Source: Coffea arabica (taxonomy: Eukaryota; Streptophyta; Magnoliopsida; Gentianales; Rubiaceae). Taken from it: a DNA stretch of 64,000 nucleotides. The notes beneath the pieces are model-generated. The model saw nothing but the letters and a program-made list of their open reading frames with translations, was not told the origin of the DNA and did not search any database. The translations under genes were made by a program, and so were the position numbers. Shown here piece after piece: positions 1 through 58,600 of this stretch; within the stretch, counting starts at the first letter, position 1; the number at the start of each line of letters is the position of its first letter. The stretch is from the NCBI RefSeq assembly GCF_036785885.1, contig NC_092312.1, positions 27,114,739 to 27,178,738 on the forward strand, read 5' to 3'.

Positions 1-2147
1 CCTATATCCAGTCCAATGTCGATGGGATGGTGATATAGTTGTTTGTCCATGCACCACTCAGAATTAGTATCTCTAATCATATAGACATCGCATGTAAAAT
101 GTAGTCTAACCAAGATATCCTACCACAGATGATAACCGACTAAGTGCATGAATCTTTACCTAATATTTGCACTCATCATGCAAATCAAGATTATAGATTT
201 GGTTTTTGTGTTTCTGTTTTTTTTTCTTGAGAAAAAAAGATCCCAATAAACAAAGTTCTGCATTGGATTCACATTTTTTAGAAGCAAGAGAGAGCAACAA
301 CAGTTGAGTAAATGTTAAGTAGATCTGAAGAACAACAATCGCCTGAACGTTAAACCCAAGAAGTACTACGTGTATTCGTGGCGAAAAGGGATTAGGCCAC
401 CTCTTAATTTAACTTCAGAAAAGTCTTTGGACCTCTCAATTTGTTTTTCTCTAGTCCTATGATGTCTTCCCCTGGCCACATTCTTTACATTTTTGCAGTA
501 GCTTAACTAGACAGGCATGATCCAGATTCGGTGATATCTCTATAGCTGGAAGAAGGTTCCCTCTATTATTGTCTAATGTTGTGTTTTGACAGCAGTTAAG
601 AACTCTTTGAGTAGATGATTAAGAAAAGATTGTGTGGAGCTGATGGAATTTAAGGTATCTTTTGTTCTTTAATTTGTTTAATGTTTTCTTGGAGACATCA
701 CTTTAATGCTGAGTCATAGACTAAAGTCTAAAAAATGGTCAACATTTTTGACTAGGACCTAACATTTGTTGTGGAAAAAGTACGGCTGATTTACGGCTGG
801 TCTTTGAATACAGATTTGCTTGTGTACTGTCGGAAGTTTCCCCGTGATTCCCTTTTATTCTTCATCTTTGTGGCACTGCTCATTCATGCATTTTTTATTG
901 GGGATTTCGTGGCATACCTGTTGATTATGTGAGGGTCCATATGAATTTTATGAAGCATTATTGGTGAAAATGTATGCAATTTTCCAACTTTCCATGAATC
1001 GTCGGTTTGTTTTGATAGGGAAAGTGCTTTAAAAATACTGATTTCACAGGATGGATAGATAGGTTTTGTCTATAGCTAGGCAGTAATATCAGGGGATCAG
1101 TACCTGAGGAAGGTTTATACATTTCCATGTTCATGTGCTCTGTTAAATTTTAACAAACTGCTGACTACTTCATCTTGCTTCACGCACTAATATAGATCGC
1201 TAAATGCAGTATATTTCGGCGCTTGATGCGCCCCTGGTATTGTTCTCTGCATCTTCCCATTTTCTTGGGAGAAAACTGTCCTTAGATGATGCCACGAGTG
1301 CCTGCCTATTCCTGCTGGAAAACTGGACTGAAAAATCAGCTGATTTTTGGCCTAACTTTTAGACACATCTGAAAGAAGTGATACTGCTCATCTAACTTTT
1401 GTTCATAACTGAAATCTACCGATGACTATCATTGAAACATGTTTAATACGAATCGCACACTTTATAATACTATGATTGATTAGGTTAGCAACCAGCTGAT
1501 TTCAGTCAAGATTTGGAATGTTATGCTTGAGATGTTGTATATTCTTTCTCATGCTAGCTCTGAATTTGAAGAGACATTTTCTTTTTTTCTTGTTACTGAT
1601 ATCAGTGTTAGTAATTCCAACGTACGTGTAAAATTACATATAGCTTTGGTAAAGCTGCCATGACATTACATGTCTTCCACAACCAGTGGAGGTTCAAACA
1701 GTTAGCTCTAGAGCAATAAGCTATAAATTGACACAATTTTGTCACCATCCCAGCGCCTGAATTCCTCCATTTTGTATCAACTAGACTCGCATTCCTTTCG
1801 CCATTTGGTAGATTAACTTGCAAGTTCTTGTGGCTGATTGTTAAGCTTGGCGTGTCTGCCAAAAGCTGCAATTTGTTTACCTTACTAGTTCGTGCTTTCT
1901 GTTTTCACTCCACTGTGAATTTAGGCAAGTCACTTTAACAAATAGAGTTGATGCTTAACCACTTCTAAAGCTGAAAGATTCAGTAACTGGTTCTACATCG
2001 ATTCTGCTGTCTAATAATCTAAAACTGTGTATCTATAATTTCTGGCAGCCACATAATAGTTTGGTTGGCACTGTTGCACAGCCTGCAATAGGATTGCTGT
2101 CTACTCCCCGGCAAGAATCAGCCAAGTGGTAGATCTATAGCTTTGGC
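1..2147. other. Non-coding region upstream of orphan MATE exon 1
   Basis: I see no convincing protein gene here. An 87-codon open frame on the minus strand (1608-1871) has no recognisable family. The stretch is likely the 5' flank or leader intron of the MATE gene. A plausible 3' splice site lies at 2047-2048, about 100 bases before the start codon, so the leader may be spliced; this is inference. The same sequence sits at 26765-28911 and, in front of the intact gene, at 53529-55675. Confidence 0.5.
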
Positions 2148-2224
2148 ATGGCAGATAATGCTGTTCTGGCTTCCCCTGAGAGAAAATGGAATTTCCCCCT
2201 CTTGGTTTTCTTCAAAGATGTTAG
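2148..2224 (+). pseudogene. Orphan first coding exon of MATE transporter
   Basis: This is a copy of exon 1 of the MATE gene whose intact version starts at 55676. It begins with ATG at 2148, preceded by an in-frame TAG at 2130, encodes 25 codons ending in the family's N-terminal FPLLVFFKDVR motif, and ends with a normal donor (AG then gtacat). Intron 1 is cut by the repeat junction at 2370/2371, and exons 2-13 are absent downstream. The fragment cannot make a transporter. If its promoter is active, the transcript would read into the next unit, antisense to the tRNA-Ser gene. Confidence 0.9.
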
Positions 2225-2428
2225 GTACATTTTCGGGATGCTATTGCAATCTTTCAACTTGTTAAGATAATCCAAGTGGCTCTTAGTTTCAGCTCTGCCT
2301 CCAAACACCATCTGTTAGTAACGAATGGTTCCTGAAAAGTAATCTGGGACCCTAAAAATGAGCCAAAAACGAAAAGCCTGGAGAAGGGAAGTGTATATGC
2401 GGTCCAGGATGCAATTAACAAAACTAAC

Positions 2429-2510
2429 CGTCGCCTGAGAGATTCGAACTCTCGCGGGGAAACCCCATGTACTTAGCAGGCACACGCCTTAACCACTCGG
2501 CCAAAGCGAC
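2429..2510 (-). tRNA. trnS-GCU: tRNA-Ser, anticodon GCU
   Basis: On the minus strand this is an 82-base class II tRNA. It has a 7-bp acceptor stem (5' GTCGCTT pairing with AGGCGAC), discriminator G, a D-arm with GGCCGAGTGGTTAAGGC, an anticodon loop CTGCTAA (anticodon at 2475-2477), a long variable arm as expected for serine, and a T-arm with GTTCGAATC. It has no encoded CCA and no intron, so it is of nuclear type. A TTTT run follows on its 3' side (2420-2423 read on the minus strand) and can act as the Pol III terminator. It lies 58 bases from the repeat junction. It decodes AGC and AGU. Confidence 0.97.
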
Positions 2511-3053
2511 TGGTTCGAGGTGGGGGGAACTATTTTCTATCTTATGGAATATTCCACAAGTTGGAACAGATGATGAATGAGATTAGTATTTACTTTAGAA
2601 ATTAGATGTTTCTGAATTTTTGAATCTTTTCCAAATGGTTATTGTAGATCAAGTTGAAGTTCGAATCATATAATATGCCCTGAATATCACGTTAAAGGGC
2701 TCTTGAATTTCAGGCCCAAGTCATGATGACTTTTTCCATGGATTTGTATGTGAAGGGACTTGCAGGAGTAGAAACTTTTGGTTTTAAGTGCATTACCAAA
2801 TTTCTATGGAATTGTCATTTGTTGACATTGATAGCACTATTTGGGAAAACCATCTAAAAGTTGGTAGCCCAACCCATAAGAAATAGTATATTATTCAATG
2901 CAATTTTTCCATAGTTAATTGCAGGGATATTCAGTAGTTAAGTTCAGTGTGACACATGCTATTGGATATGGATGGTAATTGGAACGAGTGCCTGCGAAAG
3001 TTCAATGAGGTTGGGGGCAAATGCAGGCCCCATCCCATCATCCGCCTTAATTT

Positions 3054-3120
3054 AATATATATATATAATATAAAATACATAATATAATATAGTTATATAT
3101 GTGTGTGTGTGTGTGTGTGT
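3054..3120. repeat. Compound (AT)n/(GT)10 microsatellite
   Basis: An AT-rich run is followed by ten perfect GT units (3101-3120). The length is identical in the second unit, which is useful for judging how recent or artificial the duplication is. Confidence 0.9.
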
Positions 3121-3174
3121 AATATGAAATGAATATTATGATATTTTCTTGTGATAATATAATAAAATTTTGAA

Positions 3175-3316
3175 AAATGTTATTTGTACTCCCATTTTTG
3201 TTAATTACACTTCCATTATTATTTTAATTATATGATTTTTATTTATTTATTAGACTATATGATAAAATGAATGGTAGGAGTGCAAATTCCAAAACAATGA
3301 AATGCAAATAACATTT
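3175..3316. mobile_element. MITE family 1, copy a
   Basis: This 142-bp element starts with aaatgttattt and ends with aaataacattt, a perfect 11-bp terminal inverted repeat. Inner inverted motifs (tactccc / ggagtgcaaa) extend the symmetry. A second member of the same family lies at 7416-7551 and shares the central tagactatatgat motif. There is no coding capacity. Confidence 0.75.
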
Positions 3317-6297
3317 TTCTATAATTTTTTGTGGTAAAATGATAATTTTGTTATGTTAGTTTACCTTTTTTCTTTTGCTATGTCATGTTGTTTATAAAAA
3401 TAATGATAATTCATTTAGAATTCATGTAACATCAGACATAGAGAAGCGGATTCACATCACATGGTCAAAAATAATTTTTATACTTTATCTCATGTTAAAT
3501 TTTTTGATGTGAAATTTGAAAAAATGATTAGTAAATCTATTATTAGTGTTATACATATATTAAAAAAAATGACATGAAAAATAAAAATAGTAGCAAGACA
3601 ATTCGGGGCATCCACGGGGATAGCGGGGCAGGACGGGGGCAGGGAGTGCCCAAACCCGCCCTATTGCCAACCATACTATTGGGCGGTTTTCTTCGCATCT
3701 CTTGAATTCTGTATGGCATGCCCCATATGACATTTTCTACATATCATCAATTCATCATTTTTATTTATCTGGTTTATTAATCGTGAATTTTGTCATTCAC
3801 ATTCATTTTTAGAGCAGGAAGTTTAATTCCTCAACCGTTGATTAATAATTCAAAGAGCATGTCTTGTCTACCTTGGACAAAATGCATGATGCCATATAAT
3901 TTGTACGGTGTAATGGAAAAACCACGTAGATATTTGTGGGGTTAAATGTTTTATTGTCAAGAGGATTTCTTCACAAAATTTTGAATTATTAATCGATAGA
4001 AATAAATTACCCAAAGTTTGCCCTCTAATTTGAAGAATATGAGTGTCTGTAGTGATGTATATGCACCCATGTAGAGAGGATGCTATACTATGCAGTGCTC
4101 CAATCGCGTTGCAGTCTGATCATGTAGAAGTTCCAATGCTTGATTTTCGACTGATTTAATTGAAGAAGAACTTAAAGATAGACTGCAAAAAACCAGAGAC
4201 CACCAGAAAATACTAATTACACCCTCTTGAGGTAAATTAAAATCTTTTTTTTTAAATAAAGAAAAAAAAAAGTTAGACTATTGTGCTCAAATGTATAGAC
4301 GAAATAAGAAAATTTACTTCTAGAGATGAATGTTAACACCCTCAGTTTGGGATATCAAGCCATCGCATGGGCCTTGGTCATATATATATATATATATATA
4401 TAAATTTTTATGAGTGAAAAAAAACTATATTGCTAACAAATATTTTTTAAAAAAATTTTTAATTTTCTATAGGAGTAAATACATTTGTTTTCAATAGAGC
4501 ATGGGGTACGTATCTCAATTTATGAAGACATTCCAAAGTATCTAAATCTATTGCGTATTATCAAGCTGCCACAAAATAAGTGAATGAGGTGAGACCTTGA
4601 TTGACGATTGATTTCATTATGCACACCACCTTTTGAACCAAATAAATCTTCCATTCAATTGGCCCACGTGAGAAAACACACAGGGCAAGTTATTTTTGGG
4701 GAATCATTGATACAATTTTAATTTTGGCTTCATTTGTTCCTTTTTTGGTTTGTTTTCACCTAATAATGAAGAAAAGCATGAAAAAGAAGTGGAGTATACT
4801 ATTCTTGATTCAATTCCTTTTTCTTTTTTCTTTTTTCTTTTACTGTTAAGCAAATTTATAAACATTCCATTTATAAATCATATTATATATGCAATAATAC
4901 ATAAGCTCTCTTGCACTATCATATAAATATGACTCGTTTATTAATAATATTGATTTCTGTTTTATATATAAAAAAAAAAATCATGTAGACGTGACTCGTG
5001 ATCACTTTTCTTACATCACGTGACTATAAAATATACTACATGATTTACAAGCGACATTTTAGACAACCTCTGCATAAGCATTTAACTGGTGGAAAACAAG
5101 CCCTGTAAAAATACAGCAACATGTAAAATTAGCACATTCTTTGTCTGGGCTGTGCTCCAGATTTTGAACGTTCCTGGCTCCTAGTTGACAAAAAAAAAAA
5201 AAAAGATGAAATATTGAATTTAATTCAAAATTCATCCTACTCTCCGAAATCCCTAATACATAGATTTACCTAATGTGTTCGGTGCTAAAACATGGTACTC
5301 AACATGTTCAACAATAGGAATCTAGGTCTATAGATTGGTACTCCAAATTTGAACTCATTATGTCTTCCTATAAAAGCAAAAGCAGTGCCCCTTAAATTAT
5401 TTTCAATCATGACCCCTTATGCTTTATCTTGCATATCAATCCACCGCTCTATCTCTTCAAAAGCAAGAAATATCAGCAAAATTCATAGTTGAGTAATGGG
5501 AATCATCAAGTGTATCTTCTTTCCTATGCACGCCTAAAACATGCATTATGTCTTTGCCACTTGATGATCAACGAAGTCAAAATATGTTGTAATACGAGAT
5601 CTCAATCCGACCTGTTAATTTTTCTACGTTTGATTCTAACAGTTGAATTGAAACATCGACAAGGCTTCAGACCTGATGAATAGCAGCAGCTCAGTGGGAT
5701 GAGCGGATTTTGGATATGGGGGAAACAGTGCAAAGAACCAATTAATTTTGCTTTGATTTTTGAGCATTATGGGTTTTGGTTGGGGAAAATCTCCAATTAA
5801 TTCTAGTCCGATCAATGTGCAAATGTTATTGAAACAAATTATGCAACAATAAAATTCTAGGTACTTCATAATTAATTTATACTTACATGCACCTTTTAAA
5901 ATAAAAAAGATTTAAGACGGATGCCTTGCAAATTGTGGCCGCAGAGAAGGTTTCATTGTCTAAAATCAACCGTCACATGTCCCAATCATAGACCTTTTGC
6001 AACCAGAGAAAAAGATTTTATCTGGGGATGAAAATTGAAATTCATGAAAGGATTTCACATTAATTTTCAAGTTGATGGACCAATGGATATGATCGATTTT
6101 CACCTGAATGGCTTTGGGAACATTGTATTCTAAGGTCATTTTCAGAATTGGTCATGATGGCCTCCATCTATCAAAAGCAAACCTCTCCTTTTCGCTGTTT
6201 AAAAACCCTCCAAAAACCCTTTCCCATGTCAAGCAAATCATTCTTCCCAGCCCATCTTTCTGATCACTCACACACACACACTTTCACTGCACTAGCG

Positions 6298-9200
6298 ATG
6301 ACTATCTACAGAACAGATCCAGAAGAGGAAGCTTTATTCCGCTCCTATCCTTGCGCAGTTTACTACGTACAGAGTCCATCATCAGTTTCCCATGCATACA
6401 GTGCTGAAATTCGTAACATCAACAATGAATCTGCATTAGAAACTTTTGCCAACAATCCCAACAACGCAAGCCAAGAAGCAGCCAATCGGCTTGCTCTATC
6501 GCGTTACTCGTCCTCTCATGGATCAACCAACCTTTTCCTGCATGAGAAGAAAATCCCTTATGATCATGATGTTCAAAGCCATGGAACAGGAGTTACGTAC
6601 AATGAAGAGATTAATCGTCACGAAGGCAATATGGTTGTTGTTGATAGACTCAGAAATGGCTATCACATTGAAGAAGATCATGAGTATGAAGAGGATGAGG
6701 AATATTTTGAGGAGAAGGCCGAATGGTGGAGAATGTTTTCTTTCGGTGGTTCTATTTCTGGAGGGTGGAAGTTTCTGCAGATGACTTGGAGGTTTATACT
6801 GAGTGTGGTGATTGCACTAGTTGTGTTCTACATTCTCACCAAGCCACCAGCTCCTAAGATGTCTATTAAGGTAAAATCTCTAGCCCTTTTTCCCCTTTTA
6901 GATATTTGATTCGGCCCATTCTCAACTGATTTTCTTCACTTGCTTTTAGTTTCTGATTTTGACTGTTGTCAGTGCGTGCTTCTAGTTTCTGATTTTAACG
7001 GTTATCAGTGCGGCGTGCAGTAGATGCATCTCCTTTTTTTTGGTAATTGAACGTAGGACCTCCTATTTATAATTGCTCGTATCTTACTATTTAACCCAAC
7101 CCTTCCCGCAGTAGATGCATCTTAACCGTCAGTGGAAAAGTTAATTAGAATTAAAATAAAAAGAGTTTCATGACAATTTTGGCATTCCTTTCTTCGTAAC
7201 ATTTTTTGCCATATGACATTATGGTTGTGCATAATCCGACAACTAGGGCAATGCCAATATGTAAAATCTCCCAAACCATGTTGAAAACAGAAAGCAAAAG
7301 AAACAAATGCAATGACCCCAAGATTTGTGTAAAACTGTGGAGTGACTCAATATGGAAATCTTCACAGGAGTCAAAGAATTGTGTTTCTGACAAATGTATA
7401 GAATTTTATGTAAATAAATGTTATTTACACTCCTCTTTTGTTATTTGCGCTTCCACTACTATTTTTATTATATAGTTTTCGTTTATTAGACTATATGATA
7501 TAACAAAAGGTGAGAGTGCAAATAACAAAATATGAAGTGCAAATAACATTTCCCTTTCATAAATAGCTAATTCACCTGGTTATATGTTTACGTGATGTAA
7601 AAAAGTTACATTGGAAGAAGATTAGAAAGAAAAGTTAAAGAGCCTTTTGAAAATCTTGCACGCTAATACTAAATGTATGAATGATTACTATTAGCCATCA
7701 TTTTCTTAGCCATATATAGCTAATGCAAAGGAAATCATCTTTTTCATAGGAGTGTAAACTAGCCTAAATAAGCTGAATATCTTAGTGTTCAGATTTATTT
7801 GATTATTTTAATGATATTGAATTTTGTTCAAATTTGACTTGTTTTCTTCTCGAATTGAGGTTGAATAAACTTTTGTCGAGGCGAAATCGAGTCGAGATCG
7901 AATAGTTTGAACTTTTTATATGTAAATTTCACTTATATGCTAATTAAACCAAACTTGAGCTGAATTTGAAAATTTATCAAGTACAAAATGTTGTTCAAGT
8001 TTGGTTTGATTAGTTGACGAACCAAATTTGCTTGAACTCTTATCGAGCTGAGTTTAATTCAAATATCGAATAGTTTAGTTTATCTTTCACCTTCACTTTT
8101 CATAATTCTCTAAATATGAAAACGGGGAAGTTTATTCTGGAATTATTCTTTTTTTTTTTTTTTACATAACGGCACATCTAACTTAGTCTAACGGTGGCCT
8201 AACTAGGTCGAGAAAATCGAATGAGACTGAACCACTATCTGACCAAACGGATGCACCACGTACACGCATATGAACTTAGAAAAAAATCACATATAGTGGC
8301 ACATTGACGGGTACCCTACAATCCATGTAGTAGCCAACTCCTTTAGAGAAAGTTGGTTCTTGAAAGAAGGCAATTTTGCTTTTGGGCTGTAGTTGGGCTT
8401 TGTCTGCTACACCTTCCCATCATTGTTCAAAAAAAAAAAAAAACAATTGTTTCCTATTGGGCTTAAAAGGCCCAATCCTATCACTGGAAAAGATTAAAAC
8501 GTCCGATAGGAATTCAACAATAATTCATGCCTCATGGAAATTGAACTATTAACACTTTTAGGGACCTTATTTTAGTCATTTTGAGCAATAAAGCAGATCC
8601 ACTTCAAGAAATTGTGACCCTTGGTTATCAAAGCAGACATGCTTTTACCTTAACCATTTGTAGGCCCTTTCTAGCCTTTACTTGCTTTTGTTTAAAGAAA
8701 GAGATTTGTCTCATTCTAAAGGCTGAAAGGTATCATTGAAGTTGGAAGAGAAAAACGTCAAGTAAGAAATTAAGAGTAGAAAAATCAAATGTTGCTATCT
8801 TAACTATTTGTTTGTAGGGCCATTATCCTGACTATCTTAAATGGTTCTCAGAACACATGAAAACTTTTTTTTTAATAAAAAAAACTAGAAAATTTTATTA
8901 AATTGAAGATAGATCTGCAGTAATTGCGGAGGAAAGAAAAGATGGTGAAGAAAATCTCCAAGTACGAATGTCTGAAATAGAACTAACATTCCTAGCTGAT
9001 AAATGAGCAATCACATCTAGATTCTTAAGAACCCAATTGGCCACCCAAATGACGAAAATTACACAGTTAGATGTTTATTCTCCTCGGATAAGTGCAAATT
9101 AATTTCACAAGTTGGTATAGCCATTATTAGCTCATGAAATAGTAATCAACTCAAGATGAAACATAAATGGAAGAAAACTTTGTAAATTAATATACCTAAT

Positions 9201-11636
9201 TTACATTGCACCATCTATTTTAAGTATTTTTAATTTTTTATTCCTTATAAGTGTATTGTTTCAATTAGCTTGCTACAGGTTGCTGTTCCTAGTATAAAAT
9301 ATATTGCTAGTACCTTTGAATATTTTTGTGTACGTACAAGATCCTTCTAGATGGATTAAGAGTCCTTGATTTTTTTCCGGGATTGGAAGTATAGTGGCAT
9401 GTTCAAAGGGACAAATGTTTGTGATCGAAATGGAAGCTCCACCTCTCATGGGATCTGTTATCCATCAAATCCACAATATACAAAGGCTCAGGCAAATCCA
9501 CCACTAAGAATTGTTTACTTCTATCTTGTCTCTCTTTGTGGCTCACCTGTTCTTGACCATTTAATTAATTTCAATGACATGAACAATTTCCTTGTTTTCA
9601 ACTTGATATTAAACCACATAAACTCTATATATATTGCATGAGAAGGTTGGTATCAATGATAGGAAATTAATTCGTACGCTTAATAATTTGCTTGTTCGTT
9701 TGTTGCTAATAACACCAGACCAGAATTTTGTTGTTTTCCATTCTTTGGATGAACAAATCAGGAGCATTTAGTCGTATTTTTGGCTTCAAGCTCATTTTGC
9801 CATTCTGAATTATTTACAAATCATTCCATCACATCAATACGTTCATATATGAGAGGAGAAGAGCAAGAGCACGAGTGTGTCATCCCACCTTATAATGCAC
9901 GCATGATTGTGGTTTCATCCTCAACCATTGCTTCTGTGTCTGTTATCCTCTTCTTGATTGTCATGATTGCCTTGTTATCTTCGTCAAACGGTACTCTCCT
10001 GTCATTTAGCAATATCATTTTTGAGAGATGATACAGTTCCTTTTGGATATCATGCCCTCGAATTAAAATTACCATAAGTGATTTTAACCCTTAAATTGTC
10101 ATTATTCAAAAAAATATAAATAATTATCATTCTTGAGAGATACAAATTGAGGGAATTGTTCTTAAAAGCGACATAAAATCTTCCATCATTTTTTACCCTG
10201 GATTATTGATGTTAGGCAAAAATATGCAATAGTACCTCAATATTTTGGATAAACTACAATGGACCGCTCTAATCTGGGACACTCAAAGAATCATAAATGT
10301 TAAAAATCTACACATCAAACATGTAAATTAACCAATGTCTTTTCAACTTTAATTCAAGTTCTATGTAACACGATGTATAGCAAACTCAGATTCCACAGTT
10401 CCTTCCATCAGCCAAAAAGTTACAGTATCAGATTTCCAATATGCATCAAAATTCAACATGAAATGACATAGTTGTGTAGGTCAGAATCGATCTCCAACTC
10501 ACGTATCCGTTCCTTAATATTGTACCTCTTGTAACAAGTCGATATTTGCAAAGATGGCAGGAATTCCCCAGTTTGAATTGGTTGAAGGAGTTGATGCATC
10601 TGGTGTCACCACCAAGCTGCTCACTTGCAATTGTACCGTGGACTTAGTGGTGGACAACAAGTCGAAGCTATTTGGGCTACACATTCATCCACCCTTCCTG
10701 GCAATGTCATTTGGCAATCTCCCTTTTGCATTGACTGAAGTAAGCATTTGTGTGGTATACATTTTTCAACCTTTAATCATTACAGTCACTTGTACCGTCA
10801 AGGACAGAAGGAAGCATGCATGCTTTATCCAATTGCCAGCAAGGATTCTATTGTCTCTCTCTGTTTTAGTCTTGTCAGTATTCTATTTTGGCCAAAAGTA
10901 AACAATCTGGGACTTAAACTTCATCTGATCTCAGTTTGCAGCCTTAATTCGGCCTCGTAAAAGAGCAGCTCATATTCTCTCCATTTGAAGCAAAGTGGCG
11001 GACTTAATATTTTTTAAATGTCCGCAAGATTTTAGCTGCATGAAAATACTATGTAGCTGCATGAAATTACTATAAGGTAGAAGATTTGATTTACAAGTTT
11101 AAAAACAAAAACAAATTTGAGGTGCACAATAGAACTTTACAACCAATTGTTGAAGTTGTATTTTTGTCGTTCGTCAGGACATACGTACATACATACATAT
11201 ACCTACCATAATTGCTCTTTCTTTGGTACTGATCATGATTAGATTTTTCTTGTCCCAAAAAAAGGGGAAAAGTAAAACATCTTAAAATTTTTGGGTTATC
11301 TTTTGCACACTTGAACTAATACTCAAGATTTAAAAAATGTTGCAGGCTCCAGAGTTTCATACAGGGATTGATGATACAGAAATGTTCAAGTTGTTTGTGG
11401 GCACTAGAAATAAACCAATGTATGCTGCAGGAAGAAGCATGCAAGATTTGCTTGAATCAAACAAGGGATTGCCTCTCGTCATTCGCGTGCACCTAAGATC
11501 AAGTTTTAAAGTAGTTTGGGGACTCATCAAGCCTAAATTTCATCACGAAGCTCAGTGCCTAATTATTCTTCGAAAAGCATATGACAAGAAACATAGAACT
11601 CAAGAATTTATTGGCAAGTGTGCCATTTCTTCATAG
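6298..11636 (+). CDS. LEA-2 / NHL-like hydroxyproline-rich glycoprotein family protein (YYVQSPS type)
   Basis: Three exons: 6298-6870, 10554-10739 and 11346-11636, all with GT-AG introns in phase 0, giving 349 residues. Seen in the protein: an N-terminal cytosolic part with the family motif YYVQSPS (residues 22-28), a strongly acidic stretch (about 125-142), one membrane segment (about 166-180), then a lumen-side LEA-2 domain. Within that domain are EGVDASGVTTKLLTCNCTVDL in exon 2 and the conserved C-terminal block around VVWGLIKPKFHH and KAYDKKHRTQ in exon 3. The length fits the Arabidopsis At5g42860/At1g45688 group. The start at 6298 is preferred. An upstream in-frame ATG at 6148 would add 50 residues of leader-like sequence without family similarity. 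Proteins of this type are single-pass endomembrane or plasma-membrane proteins linked to stress responses; the exact function is unknown. Intron 1 is unusually long (3,683 bp) and carries transposons. Confidence 0.9.
7030..7115 (-). mobile_element. SINE-like remnant in LEA-2 intron 1
   Basis: Read on the minus strand, this stretch contains a Pol III B-box-like motif (gtcctacgttcaattac) after a degraded tRNA-like head and ends in an A-rich run. That suits an old plant SINE. No target-site duplication was found. Confidence 0.4.
7416..7551. mobile_element. MITE family 1, copy b (LEA-2 intron 1)
   Basis: This 136-bp element has the same terminal inverted repeat (aaatgttattt / aaataacattt) as 3175-3316 and the same central tagactatatgat motif. 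The internal inverted repeats (gttatttgcgcttcc / gaagtgcaaataac) are better kept than in copy a. Confidence 0.75.
7747..8095. mobile_element. hAT-like MITE remnant in LEA-2 intron 1
   Basis: The segment opens with taggagtgtaaactagcc, a typical start of a common plant non-autonomous hAT-like group. It continues with the repetitive tcgag/cgaat-rich text characteristic of that group. A better example of the group starts near 63510. The right end is not clear. Confidence 0.45.
9366..10031 (+). other. Unassigned open frames inside LEA-2 intron 1
   Basis: Two open frames lie in the long intron. The first (9366-9641, 91 codons) has no recognised family. The second (9780-10031, 83 codons) contains MRGEEQEHECVIPPYN, then about 25 hydrophobic residues (near codons 42-67) like a single membrane anchor. 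A downstream donor-like site follows the second. They could be a decayed gene fragment or chance. They are not part of the LEA-2 reading frame. Confidence 0.2.
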
Positions 11637-18266: not shown

Positions 18267-18374
18267 TAAAAAAAAAAAAAAAAAGAAGAAAAGAAAAGGA
18301 ACGCCCATGATAGGAATCCGAATAATTAACATTGTCAAACTACGGAATACCGATGACCCGTTAAGGGATTAAAA

Positions 18375-20032: not shown

Positions 20033-20059
20033 GTGAGCATTTTAATTTTAGTATTGTTC

Positions 20060-45371: not shown

Positions 45372-46624
45372 CCTTCAATAAAAAAAAATGTTTTGAGAAC
45401 TTTATGTTTCAGGTGAGCGTTTTAATTCTGGCTTGTTTCAGGCTAAAGAAAAAGGAATGCAAAAAAGAACTTTGAACAATGGGCATTAGGACAATTCTTT
45501 TGAAAAAAAAAAAAGAAAAGAAAAAACGGTTGAAACAAACAAGAGGATGCACTTCTTTTTGTTCATGGAATAGGAATTAGGACAATTACGTATGGCGTAG
45601 ATAAAGTAATAGGCAAAACAGCTTATCAAATGCCTGCACTCATATTTTGTATTTGTCTGAGTATAGTTATAAGATACCTCTTCAGCTCTTCTCCACTGCA
45701 GTGCATGAATAATGTAATATTGATATATCCTACTGTTTTTATTACGTAATTTAGAAGATCTTTCACGTAAATTGTTGTCACACTAATACATCCGCTCGAC
45801 ACGTTGCTCTTCTTTCTTTTTTTTTTTTTTTTTTTGGCTCTTTCGTACGTGATGCATCCATTCATGATGTCGAATCGCACTAGATATAACCTTAAAATTA
45901 AGAATGGAAAAAATTGCGTGATTGGCTCTGACTTTACGGCCACAGAGTTTTTAACAAGTATAAAGGGTTCAAGAATTTATTCTTATACGCCCAAGTTAGG
46001 TTGAGTCCTGCTTTTGTGCATGAAGCTACTGAAAAAGAGAGGAGTTGGTGGTGGAAAGCTTGTAAGCTCTGCTTTGCTCTAGACCAAATTTCCAAAGGTA
46101 AGTAACCAACAATTTCTCAGTTATAAGCTCCCTTGATTTCTCTCTTCAAAACCTATTCTTCCCTTTATCCAAGGGTCATTGAAGAATTCATGTATATGAA
46201 TTGCCTTCCTTTTTTCTTCTTTGCATTGTCTTTCTTACCATTCCCATCATCTAAAGTAAATCTAGCACAATGGCTTCTGTCTTTACTTCTCTACCACTTT
46301 TTATTGCAACAGTTTCTAGCTGGATCACATACTTGGTGACTGAATAATGGCTTCATAATTTTACATTTCTCCTAACCAAAACAAAGCAATATGGTTGTAT
46401 AGCAAACTTTTCATTCATGAAAAACGGAAAAAGTACTAAAAAGATTAGCAGAGTTTTACGTCATTTGTTCACAAGCCAAGCGGTACGTTATGGAATGCCC
46501 ATGCAGGAAACGTGGCAGAAGCAGCCACACGTAGGCAAAAGGAAGACGAATGCCAAAACTATTTTCTCCAAATTTCTCCATATATTGCATCAATATTTTT
46601 GGAGAAAATAACAGTTTATTTTCT

Positions 46625-46796
46625 GTCTATAAATAACATTTGATCTTTCTTCCTCTCCCAGCCAGAAAAAACAGTCTTAAGTGTTAATTTGGAAGGCGGG
46701 AAGAGCCAAGTCTTGAGCCCAAGTCTCCAAGGTCTGCAAGTGAGAAGCCAGGCAGGAGCTCCACTTTAGCACCACCCTCATTTTGCATATTAAAAG
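46625..46796 (+). promoter_or_regulatory. Possible promoter and non-coding first exon, second copy
   Basis: A copy of 19861-20032 (TATA box 46627-46634, donor after 46796). This copy is upstream of the intact MATE gene. If it is that gene's distal promoter, the leader intron would span about 8.8 kb. This is speculative. Confidence 0.3.
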
Positions 46797-46823
46797 GTGA
46801 GCATTTTAATTTTAGTATTGTTC

Positions 46824-49800
46824 TTATTTTTGGCCTTTACAACACATATTTTCTTGTCTTTTAACTTTCTGTCTTACTATAGTATACCCTGTGCAGTTTT
46901 TTATTAGTGCAATTCTGTGTACTTTGTAACCTTTACAACTCATCCTAATCTACTACTCGGACCATTATTCATCAGTTTCACTTCTAAAAAGTAAAGTAGA
47001 TGAAGCTGGCTGAATTGAGTGCTGAAGCCTCTTATCTTGATTGGTTGTTGGATGCTAGTTTATCGTGCACACAAGTTTGTAGCATTGCATGTCTGGCCTG
47101 CTTAGTGTTTTACACCTCTACCATACATTAAGGTAGATTTTTTTCATAACATGGTCAAAATAACAATACTATTAAGGTGGATGTAAAACGTTAAAATTTA
47201 GAAGAAGGGTTCATGCATTTCCACGATAGTGCATGATAGCTTCTATGATAGTGGGTGCTGAATCTGAGTCGTCTAACTAGTTCGATCAAATAATTCTTGA
47301 TTCAAGATTGAAAACATGAACTTGAAGTACAAAACTAAAGTTTGTGAGCCATTTTGTGAGCTTGTATCAAGATTATGGAACATCAAAAAACCAATTTCAG
47401 TGACATATGAACCAAAGTTTGAACTCGCACAGTCGGATTATTTGATTTGAGCTAACATGAAAAAGATTGTACGGCTTTTTGTTGATAAATTGGAAGCACT
47501 TCAGGTGTCTTCTGACTGACATATGTATGGAACATGGCGAGGACAGCGGCATGTCTTATAGAAGGAGATAACGAGTGGACCAGTTCTTTATTTTAGGTCC
47601 TTTTATTTTTTTTTTTTCACTTGTTAGGTCCAGTTGGAAGGCCTTCAGATCAATAATTTAGAAAACTAGCTGAATTTTTACCCTCTTTGATTGAAAAAAA
47701 AAAAAAAAGGAAATTTTACTTTTCAACTTGTACAAGGTTTCAGTTGAACTTGTATTGTATTTCCAAAAATATTTTTTCCATTTTTTTCTTTTTGAAATTA
47801 TTAGGATAGATAATTTAGTCCGATTTTGCTTTCATTTTCCCGAATTTTCTCAAAATCTTATCCAACATTTCTTCTTCAAACCTATTTGTGGCATGCTGTC
47901 AAATTGAAAAGACTTGAAATGCAATTTTTTTTTTTCTGGTTAGTAAATAAGAATCTTGCAATGCAGTTTTCTATTTGTCATTTTATTTATGGTGCATTTA
48001 TTTGAAATAGCTTCTAACTTCGTGAAACTTAATAACACACACTTTTCCTTCATGAAAACCGTTTAAAAGTACTTACAAGAATGCGCAGAAACGTGGCATT
48101 TTGCTTTTATTGTTATATTATGCAATTTGTGGCCTTTACAACACACGTACACATTTGCTTACTTTTCAACTTCTAGTCTTCCTATGGTATTTTGTGCAAT
48201 TTTTTATTAGTATTATTTTGTGTACTTTTTAGCCTTTACAACCCACACTAATTTTTCACTTGGACCCTTTGAATGAGTGTTGAAGCCTCTATCTTGTTCG
48301 GTTGTTAGATGCATATTTGTCATTTTAACAGGTTTGTAGCATTGTCTCACCAAGAAGAAAAAAAAAAAAAAAAAAAAGTTTGTAGCATTGTCTCATTGTT
48401 TTGCACCTACATTACATTGACCACAAAATACAACCAAAGCAATAATAATAACTCCGACAATAACATCAAGGCAACGATGTAAAACGTTAAAATAAGGGGA
48501 AGGGTGGATGCAGTTTCATTGTCGTGGTAACGTTGATGAAAATCGGTGCTGATGATGCAGCTGCTGCAAATCAGCTGCCTGAGTCCTCTAGTTCAACCAA
48601 GCAATTCCCGCCTGACAAATTGAACTTGAATAAAAATCAAAATCACAATATTCAGTTATGAAATGTGAAAATATATGTATGTAAGCATTCATCAAATTCT
48701 TGTTGGGTGAAAGGCTCTACTCATTCTCAAATTCTTTTATATTTATTCTTTAATTTCATACACTGTTTGGGAACGGATTCGAATGCCAGCATGATTTGAT
48801 TGACCATCCGTCATCCACCAGCCCACTAGATCGGTGCTTATTAGTTTGCATCTACCATCATTCCTTTTTTTTCCCCTTTCTGTTCCATGTCTTCTGTCAT
48901 TTCCTCTCATTGCTTGTCTAACATGCATATTTGCAGTTTTATTTGTCAAATGTGGTGTTTTATGGGTTTATAATTAATCTACTATAAGATATGGACTGAT
49001 TAAAATCTTGTAAAATGACCTAACGAAATAATATTGAAGGTAAAACATCAAAAACCGATTTGAGTAACATATGGAACCAAAGTTGGAATTTGAGACAATA
49101 TTGTCGAAGTATTTGATTAGATTTATGGCATTTGAGGTGTCTTCGAATTAGGGGTGTGCATCGAAATCGATAATTCAGAACTTTAAATTTGAATTTTTTT
49201 GAAATTTTGACATAAAAAATTCCGATCGAATTCGATTTCGAATTCACTAATTCCAAATTCGAATTCGTAGCGAATTCAAGAACCCTTTTTCTTTCTTTTG
49301 GAGTTTTGTTTTGTATTTCTAATTTTTTATTATAATTATATATAAGTTTTGCTAAACTAAATGCTAACTTTGTATAATATATGTTTATGATTATAACATA
49401 ATATAAAACTAACTTCATAAGAGTTATTATTGTATTGTTAAACAATATAATTATTAGTTAGATGTATTATTATATAATATAAATTTTATATTACATATAT
49501 TAATATACATATATATAAATGAATTTGAAATCGAAATTGGTATTCGATTTCCAATTTCACACCGATTTCAAATTGTGAATTCGAAATCGAAATTTCTGAT
49601 TTGAAAAACCCCATTACCAAAATTATCGAATTAGAACCAAATTTGTATATTTCGAAATTGGAAACCCGAATTCCATTCCAATTTCTGATTTACTGATTTC
49701 AAAAATTTTAAATTTGATCAATAAATTAAAATTTTTCGATTTTGCACACTCCTACTTGAAAGTGACATGTGTATGGAAATATATCGACGACCGTCTTCGA

Positions 49801-50296
49801 AGGACAAAACAGGTGCACCAGCTTCTTGTTAGGTCCACTTGGAAGGAGGCTACCTAAGTTTTACCTCCTTTGATAAAAGGTGAAAGCAACACTTTTCTAC
49901 TCAAGGAACACAAAGTTTAAGTGAACTTGTGAACCGTGTAAATAGTTTTCAAAGTATTTGTTTAAAACTTCCTACACTGAATTATTTTATAAAAAATATT
50001 TAGTATTTTCAAAGCATTTATAGTATTTTTTTTAAATATTTTGGTAAAACTTTCTTTCATCCCACGAAGGAAGGAGCGGGGACGAGTAGGGGTACGGAAA
50101 TGAAAAGAAAAAGAGAGGGAGGAGGTAGGGGGAAGGAGGGGAAAGGAGGGTGTGACGGGTGGGAGGAAGGAGGACAAGGTGGGAGAAAGGGGAAGAGAGG
50201 GGTGGTCGTCAGGGGAAGAGAGGAGGTGGCGATGGTAGGTGTGTATTTTTGTTTTTCTTTTCTTTTGTTTGAGTATTTTTTGGGTATTTTAGTCAA

Positions 50297-50358
<62 letters not shown>

Positions 50359-50724
50359 TTAAAGCACCCCTAAAAACATGACTGCCAAACACATCCTGTA
50401 TTCTATCCAAGAATATTACTCCATTTTGCTTGTCAAAATTAACTAGCAAAAGATAGAGTACTCCGTCCGTTTAAACTTTTTTTTTTTTTTTAAGGTAAAC
50501 CTAAACTTTTGTCAGAAAAACAGACCGAATAAAGTGCTGACAAGGAGTCCAATACTCACAACCAGAAAAATGCAAAACTTTCGTTTTCCTGATTTTTAGA
50601 AAATCAATTATTTTTCAGCTTATCTCATGTCCACCAACAATATGTTTATCTCCCAATATCTCATCCGACATTTCTTCATCAACAATAAAGTTGTGGCATG
50701 CTGTCACAATGCATTTTTTCATCT
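46824..50724. repeat. Old local duplication (blocks A and B), second copy
   Basis: Block A is 46824-47944 and block B is 48125-50724. The latter carries the MITE (49149-49754), GA-rich tract (50067-50244) and TA repeat (50299-50358). This is the same structure as 20060-23960. Confidence 0.6.
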
Positions 50725-53700
50725 GTCGTTTCAGAACTATTTAGGTTCCGTTTCATCTGTTCAACTTCTGAAATGCAGCTTATAAGAAGACTCCAAAATG
50801 ATTTCTCAAGGCATGCAAATTTAATTCTATACTTGCACCTTTGACTGTATAGTCTCAAATCTCAGAGCCACAACTAGTCCTAGCCCTTTGTAAAATGTCA
50901 CCTTCCGTTTTCTTTCAATCATTTTCGGTTTCCTCTATATACATATATATATATAAGGAGAAGACGTGTCGAAGTGGGCAAAAGGGAAGCCTCAATCTAG
51001 AAAGGTCTGTCTGTCCCTTGATAATTAATCTGCGTTTTCGGGCCAAATTTCTTCCCCTTGTAAAGGGATGAAAAGGGAGTTGCCACCTCCAAGTCCAATA
51101 TAAACATTAGTCGTGTTCATATCCCAAAATGTCCCAAGTAGATGGTTTTTGAAGCCCCTATTGGACCCTTCTCTAATGTGAATTTATGTACATTTATTCT
51201 CTTCATAAATTTAGTAAAATCCTAAAAATACCCTCCCATATATCTACCATTGTAAATTTGATCTCCCACCTCTTAAACTGCATAGGTGTGGTGGTGTCCT
51301 CTATTCTCTTCATAACTGGTTTATCTTAGATTATTAAGGACAAGCTTGAGAGAGAGTACATTTCTCCTATTTATGAATCATTTTCCAACCCTAAGGAGAA
51401 TTTTTCAGATGAATCATTTATGTCATTTGTGTCCGGGGAAGGTGTTTATTAGGACCGGTAACATTAGAATTGCCAACTAAGTTGTAATCATCCTTTGCAT
51501 GTTCAAATCTAGAAGTATGTGCAGGTGTTGACTGGTAAATTATCATCCAAAAGGTCTAATTTCACTTTCCATCCAATAATCAAAAGGTCTAATTTCACTT
51601 TCTAATCCTTAGTGTGATTATAAATTCTCAATCGATCATACCTTTACTTTTGATTTCGGATGCTTCATAGTCCATAATCATCTCAAATTTTATTTCAAAG
51701 CCCTTGCATTTGAGACTCCTTTAGCCTAGATTTTCGTCCCTTATCGCCTCAATGCTCATGTACACAACTTACCTTCTTTTCAAAAATATGCACTAACATT
51801 AATTAGTCCTTAAGAATCTCAAATTGAAGATCGAGCTGGTTTCTTGGTTTTGTATTTGTTTATTTCATTTACTATATTGGTAAGCAACGGGGGTAAAATT
51901 TGGGGCCTTTTGATAACTTGAGGATCAAACATCAACACTAACATGAATGCTGCAAACTTTTCTTTCATTATAAACTTGTCTTTCATTGGCCAATGATCAC
52001 CTATTTCTTCTACTACATGGCCTTTCCTCGAAACAAAGTACTAGCATTTAATTAGAACGTCTTTGCTGTACAGAAACTTGACCTAATGTCTCTAATTTAA
52101 TAGTAGCTTTTCGATGTCAAACGATGATTAAGAGAATTATGCAATTCTTGATGATTTAGAATTTTAATCTTGCATGTGCTTTGTCTCCCTTAGTTGCATC
52201 TTGTCTTCCGGATTCAATGATTTTTTCATGTGATATGCAGATTTTACAATCCAAAAAAAAAATTTGTGTTGGTAACGTGAACATTTAATGTCTACATATG
52301 TATATATTAAACCAGAACATATTTTTCATCTTTGGTGCCTGTCTGCGCATTCACTGTGTGTGAATGTGTCACACTGGATTGAATCAAATGTTAAGCAGAA
52401 TTTTTTGATGTGCCTATTTAAAAGGAGAAGTCAAAGATGGCATTATACTTGAAGAAGGCGAATGTACGGACTGACCTACAAAATCGTGCCACTATTTCAT
52501 GATCATTATTTTATTGATCTCTGAAATATTCCCATCTGCATCTCAAACTTTTAAAAGTGCTTAAAAACTTGACAATTAAGCATAGGGTAACCACTCAAAT
52601 GAGTGAATTACCACCATTTCCTTTGTCTTGTTCTAAAACAGCACACCAAGTGGACTGGGAAAGAGATTGAATGGTTATATATATATGAGAAGGTTTGGTG
52701 GAATTGTTGTCGTTTCTCTATAGTTTATTGTGCTGAGAATATGTGTAGTTGATTCTTGTGTCCCTTTTCTTCTTCAAATTGGAAAAGAAAATGACATGCA
52801 ACAAAATTTTGACGCTAAGAAAACCGTCTGATATCTTCACATTAAAGAAAACAACAAACTACTGCTGATTGTTTTTGCATTTTCCGAATATAGATTGGTT
52901 TTCCAAACGAGGTCACTTTCACTAGAAAATTACTCAGTTTTTCTCTCCTTGAAGTTGAGTTTGTACAAGGATCTTTCACAATATAAAGTCAAATTGGAGG
53001 TAAAAAAAAGTGACAAGATCTGCCATTGTTAAGATCCAGTTCAGGTGTATCTGTTTTCAATTGTGTGTTATTTTATTTTCTGTCTAAAAAACATAAGTAC
53101 AGAACTACAGTAGATTTTTGTTTATTCGTTTTACCAATAACTAAAAAAGAGTAGCTCCAAGAAATAGAAGTACAAAGCTTTAGCAGAGTCAAGTATATTT
53201 TTGCACAAAGGCTAAGCTAAGAAACATATCACAGTTGCAATGTGCAGACTGTGGATTATTGTAGGCCTCCTAATTTCCTGAAGTGATCAAGGCTTCTAGG
53301 TAGGGATGATCATCCCTACTGGCCTAACTCATGAATTTCAAGATTTTGAATTATTCTGGCAACTTTAGCAATTACGTGACAAGCTTTTCTTTTTTTTTTT
53401 TTCGTGGTCGGTGGAAATGCAGTGGAATTGGTAATTGTACAATGACTGCTGCCACCAAATTTACAATCATAAGCAAATTTTCCAAGTTTCTAAGAAGCAA
53501 AGGCGGTTGCATGAGATCCAAAGCAATGCCTATATCCAGTCCAATGTCGATGGGATGGTGATATAGTTGTTTGTCCATGCACCACTCAGAATTAGTATCT
53601 CTAATCATATAGACATCGCATGTAAAATGTAGTCTAACCAAGATATCCTACCACAGATGATAACCGACTAAGTGCATGAATCTTTACCTAATATTTGCAC

Positions 53701-55675
53701 TCATCATGCAAATCAAGATTATAGATTTGGTTTTTGTGTTTCTGTTTTTTTTTCTTGAGAAAAAAAGATCCCAATAAACAAAGTTCTGCATTGGATTCAC
53801 ATTTTTTAGAAGCAAGAGAGAGCAACAACAGTTGAGTAAATGTTAAGTAGATCTGAAGAACAACAATCGCCTGAACGTTAAACCCAAGAAGTACTACGTG
53901 TATTCGTGGCGAAAAGGGATTAGGCCACCTCTTAATTTAACTTCAGAAAAGTCTTTGGACCTCTCAATTTGTTTTTCTCTAGTCCTATGATGTCTTCCCC
54001 TGGCCACATTCTTTACATTTTTGCAGTAGCTTAACTAGACAGGCATGATCCAGATTCGGTGATATCTCTATAGCTGGAAGAAGGTTCCCTCTATTATTGT
54101 CTAATGTTGTGTTTTGACAGCAGTTAAGAACTCTTTGAGTAGATGATTAAGAAAAGATTGTGTGGAGCTGATGGAATTTAAGGTATCTTTTGTTCTTTAA
54201 TTTGTTTAATGTTTTCTTGGAGACATCACTTTAATGCTGAGTCATAGACTAAAGTCTAAAAAATGGTCAACATTTTTGACTAGGACCTAACATTTGTTGT
54301 GGAAAAAGTACGGCTGATTTACGGCTGGTCTTTGAATACAGATTTGCTTGTGTACTGTCGGAAGTTTCCCCGTGATTCCCTTTTATTCTTCATCTTTGTG
54401 GCACTGCTCATTCATGCATTTTTTATTGGGGATTTCGTGGCATACCTGTTGATTATGTGAGGGTCCATATGAATTTTATGAAGCATTATTGGTGAAAATG
54501 TATGCAATTTTCCAACTTTCCATGAATCGTCGGTTTGTTTTGATAGGGAAAGTGCTTTAAAAATACTGATTTCACAGGATGGATAGATAGGTTTTGTCTA
54601 TAGCTAGGCAGTAATATCAGGGGATCAGTACCTGAGGAAGGTTTATACATTTCCATGTTCATGTGCTCTGTTAAATTTTAACAAACTGCTGACTACTTCA
54701 TCTTGCTTCACGCACTAATATAGATCGCTAAATGCAGTATATTTCGGCGCTTGATGCGCCCCTGGTATTGTTCTCTGCATCTTCCCATTTTCTTGGGAGA
54801 AAACTGTCCTTAGATGATGCCACGAGTGCCTGCCTATTCCTGCTGGAAAACTGGACTGAAAAATCAGCTGATTTTTGGCCTAACTTTTAGACACATCTGA
54901 AAGAAGTGATACTGCTCATCTAACTTTTGTTCATAACTGAAATCTACCGATGACTATCATTGAAACATGTTTAATACGAATCGCACACTTTATAATACTA
55001 TGATTGATTAGGTTAGCAACCAGCTGATTTCAGTCAAGATTTGGAATGTTATGCTTGAGATGTTGTATATTCTTTCTCATGCTAGCTCTGAATTTGAAGA
55101 GACATTTTCTTTTTTTCTTGTTACTGATATCAGTGTTAGTAATTCCAACGTACGTGTAAAATTACATATAGCTTTGGTAAAGCTGCCATGACATTACATG
55201 TCTTCCACAACCAGTGGAGGTTCAAACAGTTAGCTCTAGAGCAATAAGCTATAAATTGACACAATTTTGTCACCATCCCAGCGCCTGAATTCCTCCATTT
55301 TGTATCAACTAGACTCGCATTCCTTTCGCCATTTGGTAGATTAACTTGCAAGTTCTTGTGGCTGATTGTTAAGCTTGGCGTGTCTGCCAAAAGCTGCAAT
55401 TTGTTTACCTTACTAGTTCGTGCTTTCTGTTTTCACTCCACTGTGAATTTAGGCAAGTCACTTTAACAAATAGAGTTGATGCTTAACCACTTCTAAAGCT
55501 GAAAGATTCAGTAACTGGTTCTACATCGATTCTGCTGTCTAATAATCTAAAACTGTGTATCTATAATTTCTGGCAGCCACATAATAGTTTGGTTGGCACT
55601 GTTGCACAGCCTGCAATAGGATTGCTGTCTACTCCCCGGCAAGAATCAGCCAAGTGGTAGATCTATAGCTTTGGC
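50725..55675. other. Non-coding region upstream of the intact MATE gene
   Basis: This contains the copy of the 39-codon open frame (53442-53561) and the presumed proximal promoter and leader of the MATE gene. A candidate 3' splice site ends at 55576, about 100 bases before the ATG. No separate gene is seen. Confidence 0.5.
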
Positions 55676-58600
55676 ATGGCAGATAATGCTGTTCTGGCTT
55701 CCCCTGAGAGAAAATGGAATTTCCCCCTCTTGGTTTTCTTCAAAGATGTTAGGTACATTTTCGGGATGCTATTGCAATCTTTCAACTTGTTAAGATAATC
55801 CAAGTGGCTCTTAGTTTCAGCTCTGCCTCCAAACACCATCTGTTAGTAACGAATGGTTCCTGAAAAGTAATCTGGGACCCTAAAAATGAGCCAAAAACTC
55901 ATTTTTTGATTTGGAGGGACAGTTGGTTCTATGCTTGAAGGTGACACTGCTTTTTTGACTGAATCTTTTCTCAGGAGTGTCTTCAAATTGGATGATCTTG
56001 GCTTGGAGATCTTGCGCATTGCATTTCCTGCAGCTCTTGCATTGGCTGCTGACCCCATTGCTTCTCTGATTGATACAGCATTTATTGGCCATCTGGGTAT
56101 GCTTTATAATCCCTTTCCATTACCCTAAGCACATTTATCTATCATAAGCTTAAATTATGTCCAGAACGCCCCCTTATGTGGCTAAGTCCAACTACAGACT
56201 ATGACGATTCTGATACATTGGAAACAGATTACCACAAATGGTTACTGATCAACTTTTCCTAACTGTGCAGGTCCAGTAGAAATTGCAGCTGTTGGTGTTG
56301 CAATTGCTATTTTCAATCAAGTGTCGAAGGTAGCCATATTCCCGATAGTTAATATTACAACCTCCTTTGTTGCTGAGGAAGACACAGTCAAAAGAATAGC
56401 TGATGAATCGCAAGCCGATGACTTGGAGAAAGGTTCAGTAAAGATCAATGAAACAGAAGAACAGACGCCAGAAGATGCTAAGGTGGAGAAGTTGGATACT
56501 TCAGGCCCTGAGAATGAACCAAAGGAGTTCGAGAAGGAATGTGGTATGTTTCCTTACCTGAAGAGCTCAGATGGATGAGCAGCTTATTTTGGTGAAGTGT
56601 ATATGTGCAGGTCGTGTCATAACTTCTGAGGATCAAAAGGTATATATATATATTAACTCGTTTTCTCTCTTCAATCAGATTTTAAAACAGCTTCATGCAA
56701 ATCTTCACCTGTAACTAAAAAATCTGCTACTGAGGGAAAACACAAACCTGAGAGGCGACATATCCCTTCAGCATCAACTGCGCTGGTTGTTGGTGGTGTG
56801 CTTGGCCTTCTCCAAACAGTGTTGCTTATATTTCTGGCAAAACCCATCCTTGGATTCATGGGAGTGAAATCTGTGAGTATTAGGAGTACTTGCACCTCCA
56901 GAAAAATGCATCGAACTCTAGGATTCAGGCTTCACACTTCCAACACTGTGTAAGGTGATAACATCTTAATGCCATTTGTCCTTTTTTGGATCAAATAGGG
57001 ATCTCCAATGCTGGCCCCAGCACAGAAGTATCTAACACTGAGGGCACTTGGTTCTCCTGCTGTTGCACTTTCTTTGGCCATGCAAGGCGTCTTTCGAGGT
57101 TTCAAGGATACTAAAACTCCTCTGTACGCCACTGGTAATGCATTCCTTCATTACCTTTTCTTCTGTGTTTCTATTACGTTTCTATATGTCTGCATTAGTC
57201 TTTTAGCAATAAAACCAACACCTTTATATGAAACATTTGGATGTCACCATTAGGACAGCTTTCATTAGTTTCCAGGCACTCAAATTGAAAAGAAGTTTTA
57301 CCAAGTCTGCAACTTTTTTTTGTAAAACAGTATCCATCATCACCAGCTCAAAGAGCAGTTTAGAATTGTAGATTATTTCTCTGGTCCGGAACCAAAATAT
57401 CAGTACTTGACATACCACAATCACAAGTCAAAACACTTCAGCTAATTTCTGCTTGTGTTTTTGTACCAACAGTTGCAGGAGATACAACAAATATCATTTT
57501 AGACCCCATCTTCATATTTGCCTTCCATTTTGGTGTTAGTGGTGCAGCCATTGCCCATGTTCTTTCCCAGTAAGTATTTTATCCATAACTTTCTGCACTA
57601 AATGCATTTCAAAGTGCCTTATTCTTCCCAATGCGCTGCAAAAATGATCAATCACCTAATTTTCTTTCACTTGACCGACAGCTTTACTTTCTTACAGGTA
57701 CTTGATTTCCATTATACTATTGTGCAAGCTAATGAAGCAAGTTGACCTATTGCCTCCAACTACTAAACGTATGCAATTCAGCAAATTTCTCAGGAGCGGT
57801 AGGTATCATGCTTGATTGATAGTATAATATATACTGATGCTACTTTACTATGCAGAGCATTGCTAAAACTAATGACATTATATCTGTGAAAGCATTGCAT
57901 ATACCCGATAATACATAAACGTTGTAATGAAGATTTCAAGTAAATTAGAGAAACCAGAAATGACTTCTGATGTGGAAAAGCAGAGTTCACTTACTTTATA
58001 GTTGATCATGATCACATGTCCCAGAACCTAAAATCTTTGTATAACTCTATTAGACGATGAACAAGAATGAAATATAAATCCAACTAGCGGACCATAACAC
58101 AAAGACAGCAGCTTTGAAGCCGTCCATGTATTTGCAGAAACCTTGTTCTGATTCTCATTGCACATTTATCAACTCGATTAGACGGTAATAGGGAAAAGTG
58201 AAAATATCCACACGATCAAATTCAACTTTGCTTGTCATTCTACTGAAATGAGTTTTACAAATTTCAACTTGGAAGTCCTTTGATGTTTCTTTTTTTCAAA
58301 TGCTGGTGTACACTCAAAGATTTCATTACTTCTTCCCCGGTGTTTGTTACTCAAATACTCCTAATTACTAAGGGTATGAAAAAATTGTCACCTTATCCAA
58401 GTCACATTTTTTCCTTTATCCAACTATCACATCCGAAAACTTAAATAGTATAAATGAACGAATCAAACGCCTTCCACTGATTTTCCCTTGGCTTTTGAGC
58501 ACAGGTTCCCTAATATTAACGAGGGTTCTGGCTGCAACAATTTGTGTGACCTTGGGTGCATCAATGGCTGCAAGGCTTGGGCCAACACCTATGGCTGCAT

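Follow-up and report, generated by a model that had tools for sequence, protein, structure and literature searches.

Head-to-tail arrays with units of about 30 kb and a few genes in each unit are already known in plants, and the array described here is of this kind. The soybean Rhg1 locus is reported as a 31.2-kb unit in up to 10 copies (PMC6712407), the cucumber Femaleness (F) locus as a 30.2-kb tandem repeat (PMC7072070), and a review gives the three copies of the maize MATE1 tandem triplication as 100% identical (PMC4544587). We analysed a window of 64,000 nucleotides from Coffea arabica (contig NC_092312.1, here called C3, positions 27114739-27178738, in an assembly of 1,197,963,845 bases and 131 contigs), most of which consists of direct repeats of a 26,764-bp unit. 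Each unit carries a tRNA-Ser(GCT) gene and a three-exon gene model for a 349-aa protein, and the right unit end lies in intron 1 of a MATE transporter gene. From the assembled sequence we consider it likely that the locus combines two layers, a real and very recent tandem duplication on C3 and an unmerged contig overlap that follows a gap directly right of the window.

Like Rhg1 as described in PMC6712407, the C3 array is a direct tandem repeat of a multi-gene block of about 30 kb that would change the dosage of unrelated genes. Rhg1 contains other genes, is described from many accessions and has a known resistance phenotype, whereas the C3 array is known from one assembly. The cucumber F locus is similar in unit size, in its direct tandem arrangement and in the new neighbour created at the junction, and its copy number is described as able to shift by unequal crossing-over (PMC7072070). 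In cucumber, this junction generates CsACS1G with a recombinant distal promoter, whereas the C3 junction leaves MATE exon 1 beside a tRNA gene. The maize triplication shares with C3 the identical tandem copies and the presence of a MATE-family citrate-efflux gene (PMC4544587). In contrast to maize, where the MATE gene itself is multiplied, only exon 1 and the upstream sequence are multiplied on C3, where there is one MATE gene to the left of the gap.

Within the window, exact 31-base words are repeated at two offsets only, 26,764 and 53,528. In the self-comparison of the window, positions 1-29134 equal positions 26765-55898 with 0 mismatches, and the identity ends at 55898|55899. The original prediction had named a self-alignment as its check, and the exact constant period of 26,764 bp up to 55898 is borne out by it. 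The units are arranged as follows:

1..2370 (C3:27114739-27117108), + strand: tail of unit 2, identical to 26765-29134 and 53529-55898
2371..29134 (C3:27117109-27143872), + strand: unit 3, 26,764 bp, identical to 29135-55898
29135..55898 (C3:27143873-27170636), + strand: unit 4, the last unit left of the gap, identical to unit 3

The two full units and the tail of a third that had been predicted are thus found in the window as described, and on C3 four units stand left of the gap. The layout of C3:27040001-27290000, assembled from 20 genome pieces plus the window, shows the native left flank, four units at 27063581-27170636 (107,056 bp, 4.000 periods), 8,102 bp of right flank and the gap. Units 2, 3 and 4 are mutually identical. 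Unit 1 departs from them at one base only (27063715, 1/26,764), so that the predicted absence of divergence holds inside the window and fails by this one base for the whole array. The base is unit position 135, which is C in unit 1 and A in units 2-4, in the full unit beyond the gap and on C4, the contig with the related locus. At two sites near position 135, the array units have the C3 form and not the C4 form. As 29,134 sites show no difference, divergence has a 95% upper limit of 1.0e-4 per site, which corresponds to about 7,400 generations at a rate of 7e-9. This age bound is weak, because the identity of the units may stem from one reused consensus.

The junction between units is constant. 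All nine candidate sites of the junction and join queries were scored (9/9). Full matches of the junction query lie at C3:27090310, 27117074 and 27143838, which are 26,764 apart, and at 27205785. The native left join is found at C3:27063576, and the native right join ends at C3:27170636 and C3:27232583. On C4, the left join is at C4:27740220 and the right join ends at C4:27778610. Head-to-tail copies with a constant junction, as in a direct tandem segmental duplication, are therefore present in the assembled sequence. In the window, a junction 30-mer occurs at 2356 and at 29120. The sequence is ...gcagagAAAAC|GAAAAG at the left flank and ...gagccaAAAAC|TCATTT at the right unit side, which results in a novel junction of unit end and unit start (E|S) with exactly 5 bp of microhomology. 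The elements at the breakpoints are:

29130..29134, + strand: AAAAC, the microhomology of the new E|S junction; present likewise at 2366-2370 and, in the native right join, at 55894-55898
55882..55906, + strand: perfect inverted repeat with 9-bp arms and a loop of 7 bases, aaaaatgag[CCAAAAA]ctcattttt; the 3' edge of this loop is the breakpoint

On both C3 and C4, AAAAC forms the end of the native left flank, and microhomology of at least 5 bp is found in 0.7% of random breakpoint pairs drawn from the same flanks. By blastn (E<=1e-3), neither the 10-kb left flank nor the first 5 kb of the unit shows similarity to the 10 kb around the right breakpoint. The longest word that unit start and right breakpoint have in common is 11 bases in direct and 9 bases in inverted orientation, and shuffles reach up to 12. 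A junction with a short identity and flanks that share no long repeat make up the pattern described for microhomology-mediated duplication, either by fork stalling and template switching (FoSTeS) or microhomology-mediated break-induced replication (MMBIR), or by end joining. Long homologous repeats at both breakpoints, as required for non-allelic homologous recombination, were not found in the blastn comparison of 10 kb with 10 kb.

The AAAAC microhomology overlaps the loop of the hairpin at the right breakpoint. The 61-base region of the native right join folds as DNA with z = -2.03, and 9/200 shuffles are as good. Counting hairpins whose stem reaches 9 or more and whose loop measures 3-10 bases, 0.8% of 29135-64000 is covered (20 listed, several of them overlapping), and the breakpoint hairpin sequence is also present on C4. 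The left breakpoint is 58 bp away from the tRNA-Ser gene.

On C4 the locus occurs once, in diverged form; its outer joins L|S and E|U agree with those of C3, whereas E|S is absent. This is the single-copy related locus expected for a recent tandem duplication, and a single copy is therefore probably the ancestral state. Paired contigs among the matches are C3/C4, C11/C12 and C17/C18, and C3 and C4 are probably homeologs or haplotypes. The mismatch between C3 and C4 amounts to 3.0% (829/27,497 sites; the count covers 17 colinear blocks and takes in as much as 2 kb of either flank) after removal of overlapping and out-of-order blocks; with all blocks kept, the count is 912/28,872. The C4 locus spans 38,386 bp compared to 26,764 bp on C3. 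Two C4 stretches have no aligned counterpart on C3, C4:27742490-27750572 (8,083 bp) and C4:27760547-27763537 (2,991 bp), opposite which 613 bp and none of C3 remain unaligned, respectively; they explain most of the length difference. Near the array edge, about 83-1447 bp left of C3:27063581, 1,365 bp on C3 stand against 12 bp on C4, an insertion or deletion.

The right end of the array is crossed by a gene that the original prediction had missed:

55676..59974, + strand: model of an intact MATE transporter gene encoding 541 aa in 13 exons, with manually set exon edges, in frame when spliced at GT-AG introns
28912..28988, + strand: isolated MATE exon 1, the gene being truncated by the junction, identical to 55676-55752, with the unit start following 29134

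Unit 4 contributes exon 1 (55676-55752) and the unique flank exons 2-13, with the breakpoint inside intron 1. Since the gene reads intact and in frame through E|U, the right array end is an ancestral join. Of the four flank open reading frames, three were scanned unspliced and gave no Pfam match; PF01554 was matched only after splicing, with E=4e-30 for the spliced protein. The best relative among PDB chains is barley HvAACT1 (9l7l, 610 bits, next chain 50 bits), an aluminium-activated citrate transporter of the AACT1/FRD3 group of MATE proteins. With a MatE domain and this close relative, the gene at the right edge of the array is, as judged from its predicted protein, a MATE of citrate-transporter type. 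The same lone exon 1 occurs in the tail at 2148-2224, as follows from the identity of the tail. It is conceivable that the inner junctions give rise to a new transcript from the MATE upstream sequence and exon 1. MATE exon 3 has 2 copies on C3 and 1 copy on C4 (3/3 candidates scored). Downstream of the MATE gene, about 950 bp at 60890-61842 match their own reverse complement with 61% over 1,024 aligned columns, similar to a foldback miniature inverted-repeat transposable element (MITE).

The second layer concerns the gap. A run of 500 N at C3:27178739-27179238 lies directly right of window position 64000 and is the sole N run in C3:27040001-27290000. The following stretch is written again behind it:

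2554..64000, + strand: 61,447-bp stretch repeated exactly after the gap at C3:27179239-27240685, read as unmerged contig overlap

C3:27179239-27240685 equals C3:27117292-27178738 exactly, and the 5 kb after C3:27240685 have no blastn match left of the gap. The repeat is apparently a single locus that appears twice, through two overlapping contigs left unmerged, because the identity begins with the first base after the gap and ends with the last base before it. Such an overlap would mean that, immediately beyond the right edge of the window, about two units and the second MATE gene are spurious. Rhie et al. 2021 use the term homotype false duplication for falsely duplicated sequence at contig boundaries, as is the case here (PMC8081667). 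The length of 61 kb differs from the duplications described there, which are about as long as a read. That all C3 units are real and a second array stands beyond the gap is very improbable: the units do stand in the assembly, but 61,447 bp of identity bounded exactly by the edges of the gap is what characterises an overlap left unmerged. Pasting two contigs end to end a single time explains this second block. As cause of the array itself we rejected such a paste, since the identity run exceeds the period and there are two identical junctions.

In the mechanism that we consider best supported, a 26,764-bp segment of C3, starting 58 bp from the tRNA-Ser gene and ending in MATE intron 1, would have been duplicated head to tail. 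The right breakpoint, at the edge of the small hairpin loop, would have been joined to the left breakpoint via the 5-bp AAAAC. This probably took place by template switching or by end joining across sister strands, and growth to about four copies may have occurred by unequal crossing-over. Every unit has the full tRNA-Ser gene and the full 349-aa gene; the remainder of the MATE gene follows the last unit only, leaving exon 1 alone in the others. A replication-based duplication is the likeliest start, followed by unequal crossing-over as for cucumber F, because of the hairpin, the nearby tRNA gene, the stalling of forks at hairpins and template switching at microhomology. Inverted repeats and hairpins are described as able to drive breaks and fork stalling (PMC12708500), and template switching at microhomology is described as well (PMC4544587). 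The identical junction would also result if sister chromatids were joined end to end or if a circle was the intermediate. In the assembly layer, the array stretch and the stretch after the gap would be the same DNA over 61,447 bp, as their end-to-start identity suggests, and the assembler may have passed repeatedly through a single consensus unit, which would account for the copy number and the perfect identity.

Three readings had been offered in the original prediction, and among them the recent tandem duplication is best supported, by the C4 joins, the 5-bp microhomology and the deviating base of unit 1. The assembler reading also looks right in part, given the 61,447-bp exact repeat across the 500-N gap, and a circular intermediate is possible. 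We regard it as unlikely that the whole array is an artefact, in which a chimeric read or a false overlap at a single-copy C3 locus made the assembler walk a loop several times. In favour of this reading are the perfect identity of units 2-4 including long homopolymers, the evident assembly error at the adjoining gap and the start of the post-gap sequence near the one distinguishing base. However, the unit ends share 5 bp only and the flanks show no blastn similarity (E<=1e-3), which leaves nothing for a false overlap to act on. Position 135 also argues for two copies, as it is A in the copies linked to E|S and C in the copy linked to the left flank. A chimera of a single C3 copy would keep C, and so the left part of the unit should exist on C3 in two or more distinct copies, unless the base at position 135 is an error. 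It is similarly doubtful that an extrachromosomal 26.8-kb circle was involved, whether it grew by rolling circle and then recombined back into its home locus, or stayed free and was placed in the chromosome by the assembler. Closing a circle at E|S by the same 5-bp microhomology yields the same junction, and units 2-4 are identical to one another; yet no evidence specific to a circle was found, and tandem duplication with unequal crossing-over would equally produce 4.000 in-register units between both native flanks. Least probable is recombination between long flanking repeats, such as a transposon or a pair of long terminal repeats (LTRs). For tandem direct duplications, non-allelic homologous recombination is named as the prevailing model (PMC3744419), but here the ends share 5 bp only and the 10-kb left flank has no blastn match to the 10 kb around the right breakpoint, and we rejected it on this flank comparison.

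Several observations weigh against a real duplication with the proposed start. The difference at position 135 could be a consensus error. In units 1-4, 25 mononucleotide runs (9-20 bases), 8 dinucleotide runs and 1 trinucleotide run are the same, which suggests that one consensus was reused rather than copies being read independently, because long-read copies that are assembled independently are expected to differ at some runs. Behind the gap, the sequence resumes at unit position 184, 49 bp past the sole distinguishing base, as if the unit were one collapsed graph node. The 61-base E|S junction folds with z = 1.03, no better than shuffles, and the hairpin and the nearness of the tRNA gene are after-the-fact observations. 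Taking both sides together, the E|S junction is probably real, with at least two copies, as far as the assembled bases tell. The four copies and their perfect identity are a statement of the assembler and not independent evidence.

The tRNA gene lies close to the left unit end:

29193..29274, - strand: tRNA-Ser(GCT), called by ARAGORN and Rfam RF00005 (57.8 bits), 58 bp inside the left unit end

The other full copy in the window is at 2429-2510. The tRNA-Ser gene predicted for the unit is therefore confirmed. The distinguishing base C3:27063715, equivalent to window position 29269, is tRNA position 6, where a T-G pair of the acceptor stem becomes G-G in unit 1. ARAGORN still calls the unit 1 copy despite G-G. 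The base of unit 1 looks derived, and C4 has the base of units 2-4.

The second gene of the unit is a hand-spliced model:

33062..38400 (33062-33634, 37318-37503, 38110-38400), + strand: three-exon gene model, 349 aa, frame open

A copy lies in unit 3 at 6298-11636, and all three exons are identical in both units. Exon 1 has 6 copies on C3 and 1 on C4 (7/7 candidates scored). The gene had been labelled LEA-2, a label that we could not confirm, as the protein has no LEA_2 match in Pfam up to E=10 and no match in PDB up to E=1. By its N-terminal motif we presume a LEA-2/NHL-like resemblance, to which Pfam lends no confirmation. A motif containing YVQSPS is listed among LEA proteins in PMC11533890. 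Judged by eye, the protein has what looks like a predicted membrane segment. At the inner junctions, MATE upstream sequence and exon 1 (28912-29134) are situated about 4 kb upstream of this gene (33062) on the same strand.

The unit had also been described as carrying multiple transposons. For this, we find no protein-domain support: in unit 29135-55898, 0/19 stop-to-stop open reading frames of at least 90 aa match Pfam at E<=0.01, a search that covers protein-coding frames of this size. Helitron termini are 5'-TC and 3'-CTRR. Read by eye, the unit starts with GAAAAG and ends with CCAAAAAC, and its other strand starts with GTTTTT and ends with CTTTTC, so that neither strand has Helitron termini. 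An array driven by a transposon was rejected on these grounds, with no Pfam match in 19/19 frames and unit ends that are not Helitron-like.

For gene dosage, counts taken directly from this assembly call for caution, as they give six 349-aa genes and two MATE genes on C3, while the sequence left of the gap supports four and one. There is a small chance that the fullest version holds, in which a four-copy amplification specific to this chromosome began at the hairpin loop and the tRNA flank and raised the dose of tRNA-Ser(GCT) and the 349-aa protein, with junctions possibly giving new transcripts and a copy number that varies between individuals. If real, the array would be a very young one in which both ancestral joins and the microhomology junction can still be read, next to a gene of the citrate-transporter group of aluminium tolerance, and its copy number may vary within the species.

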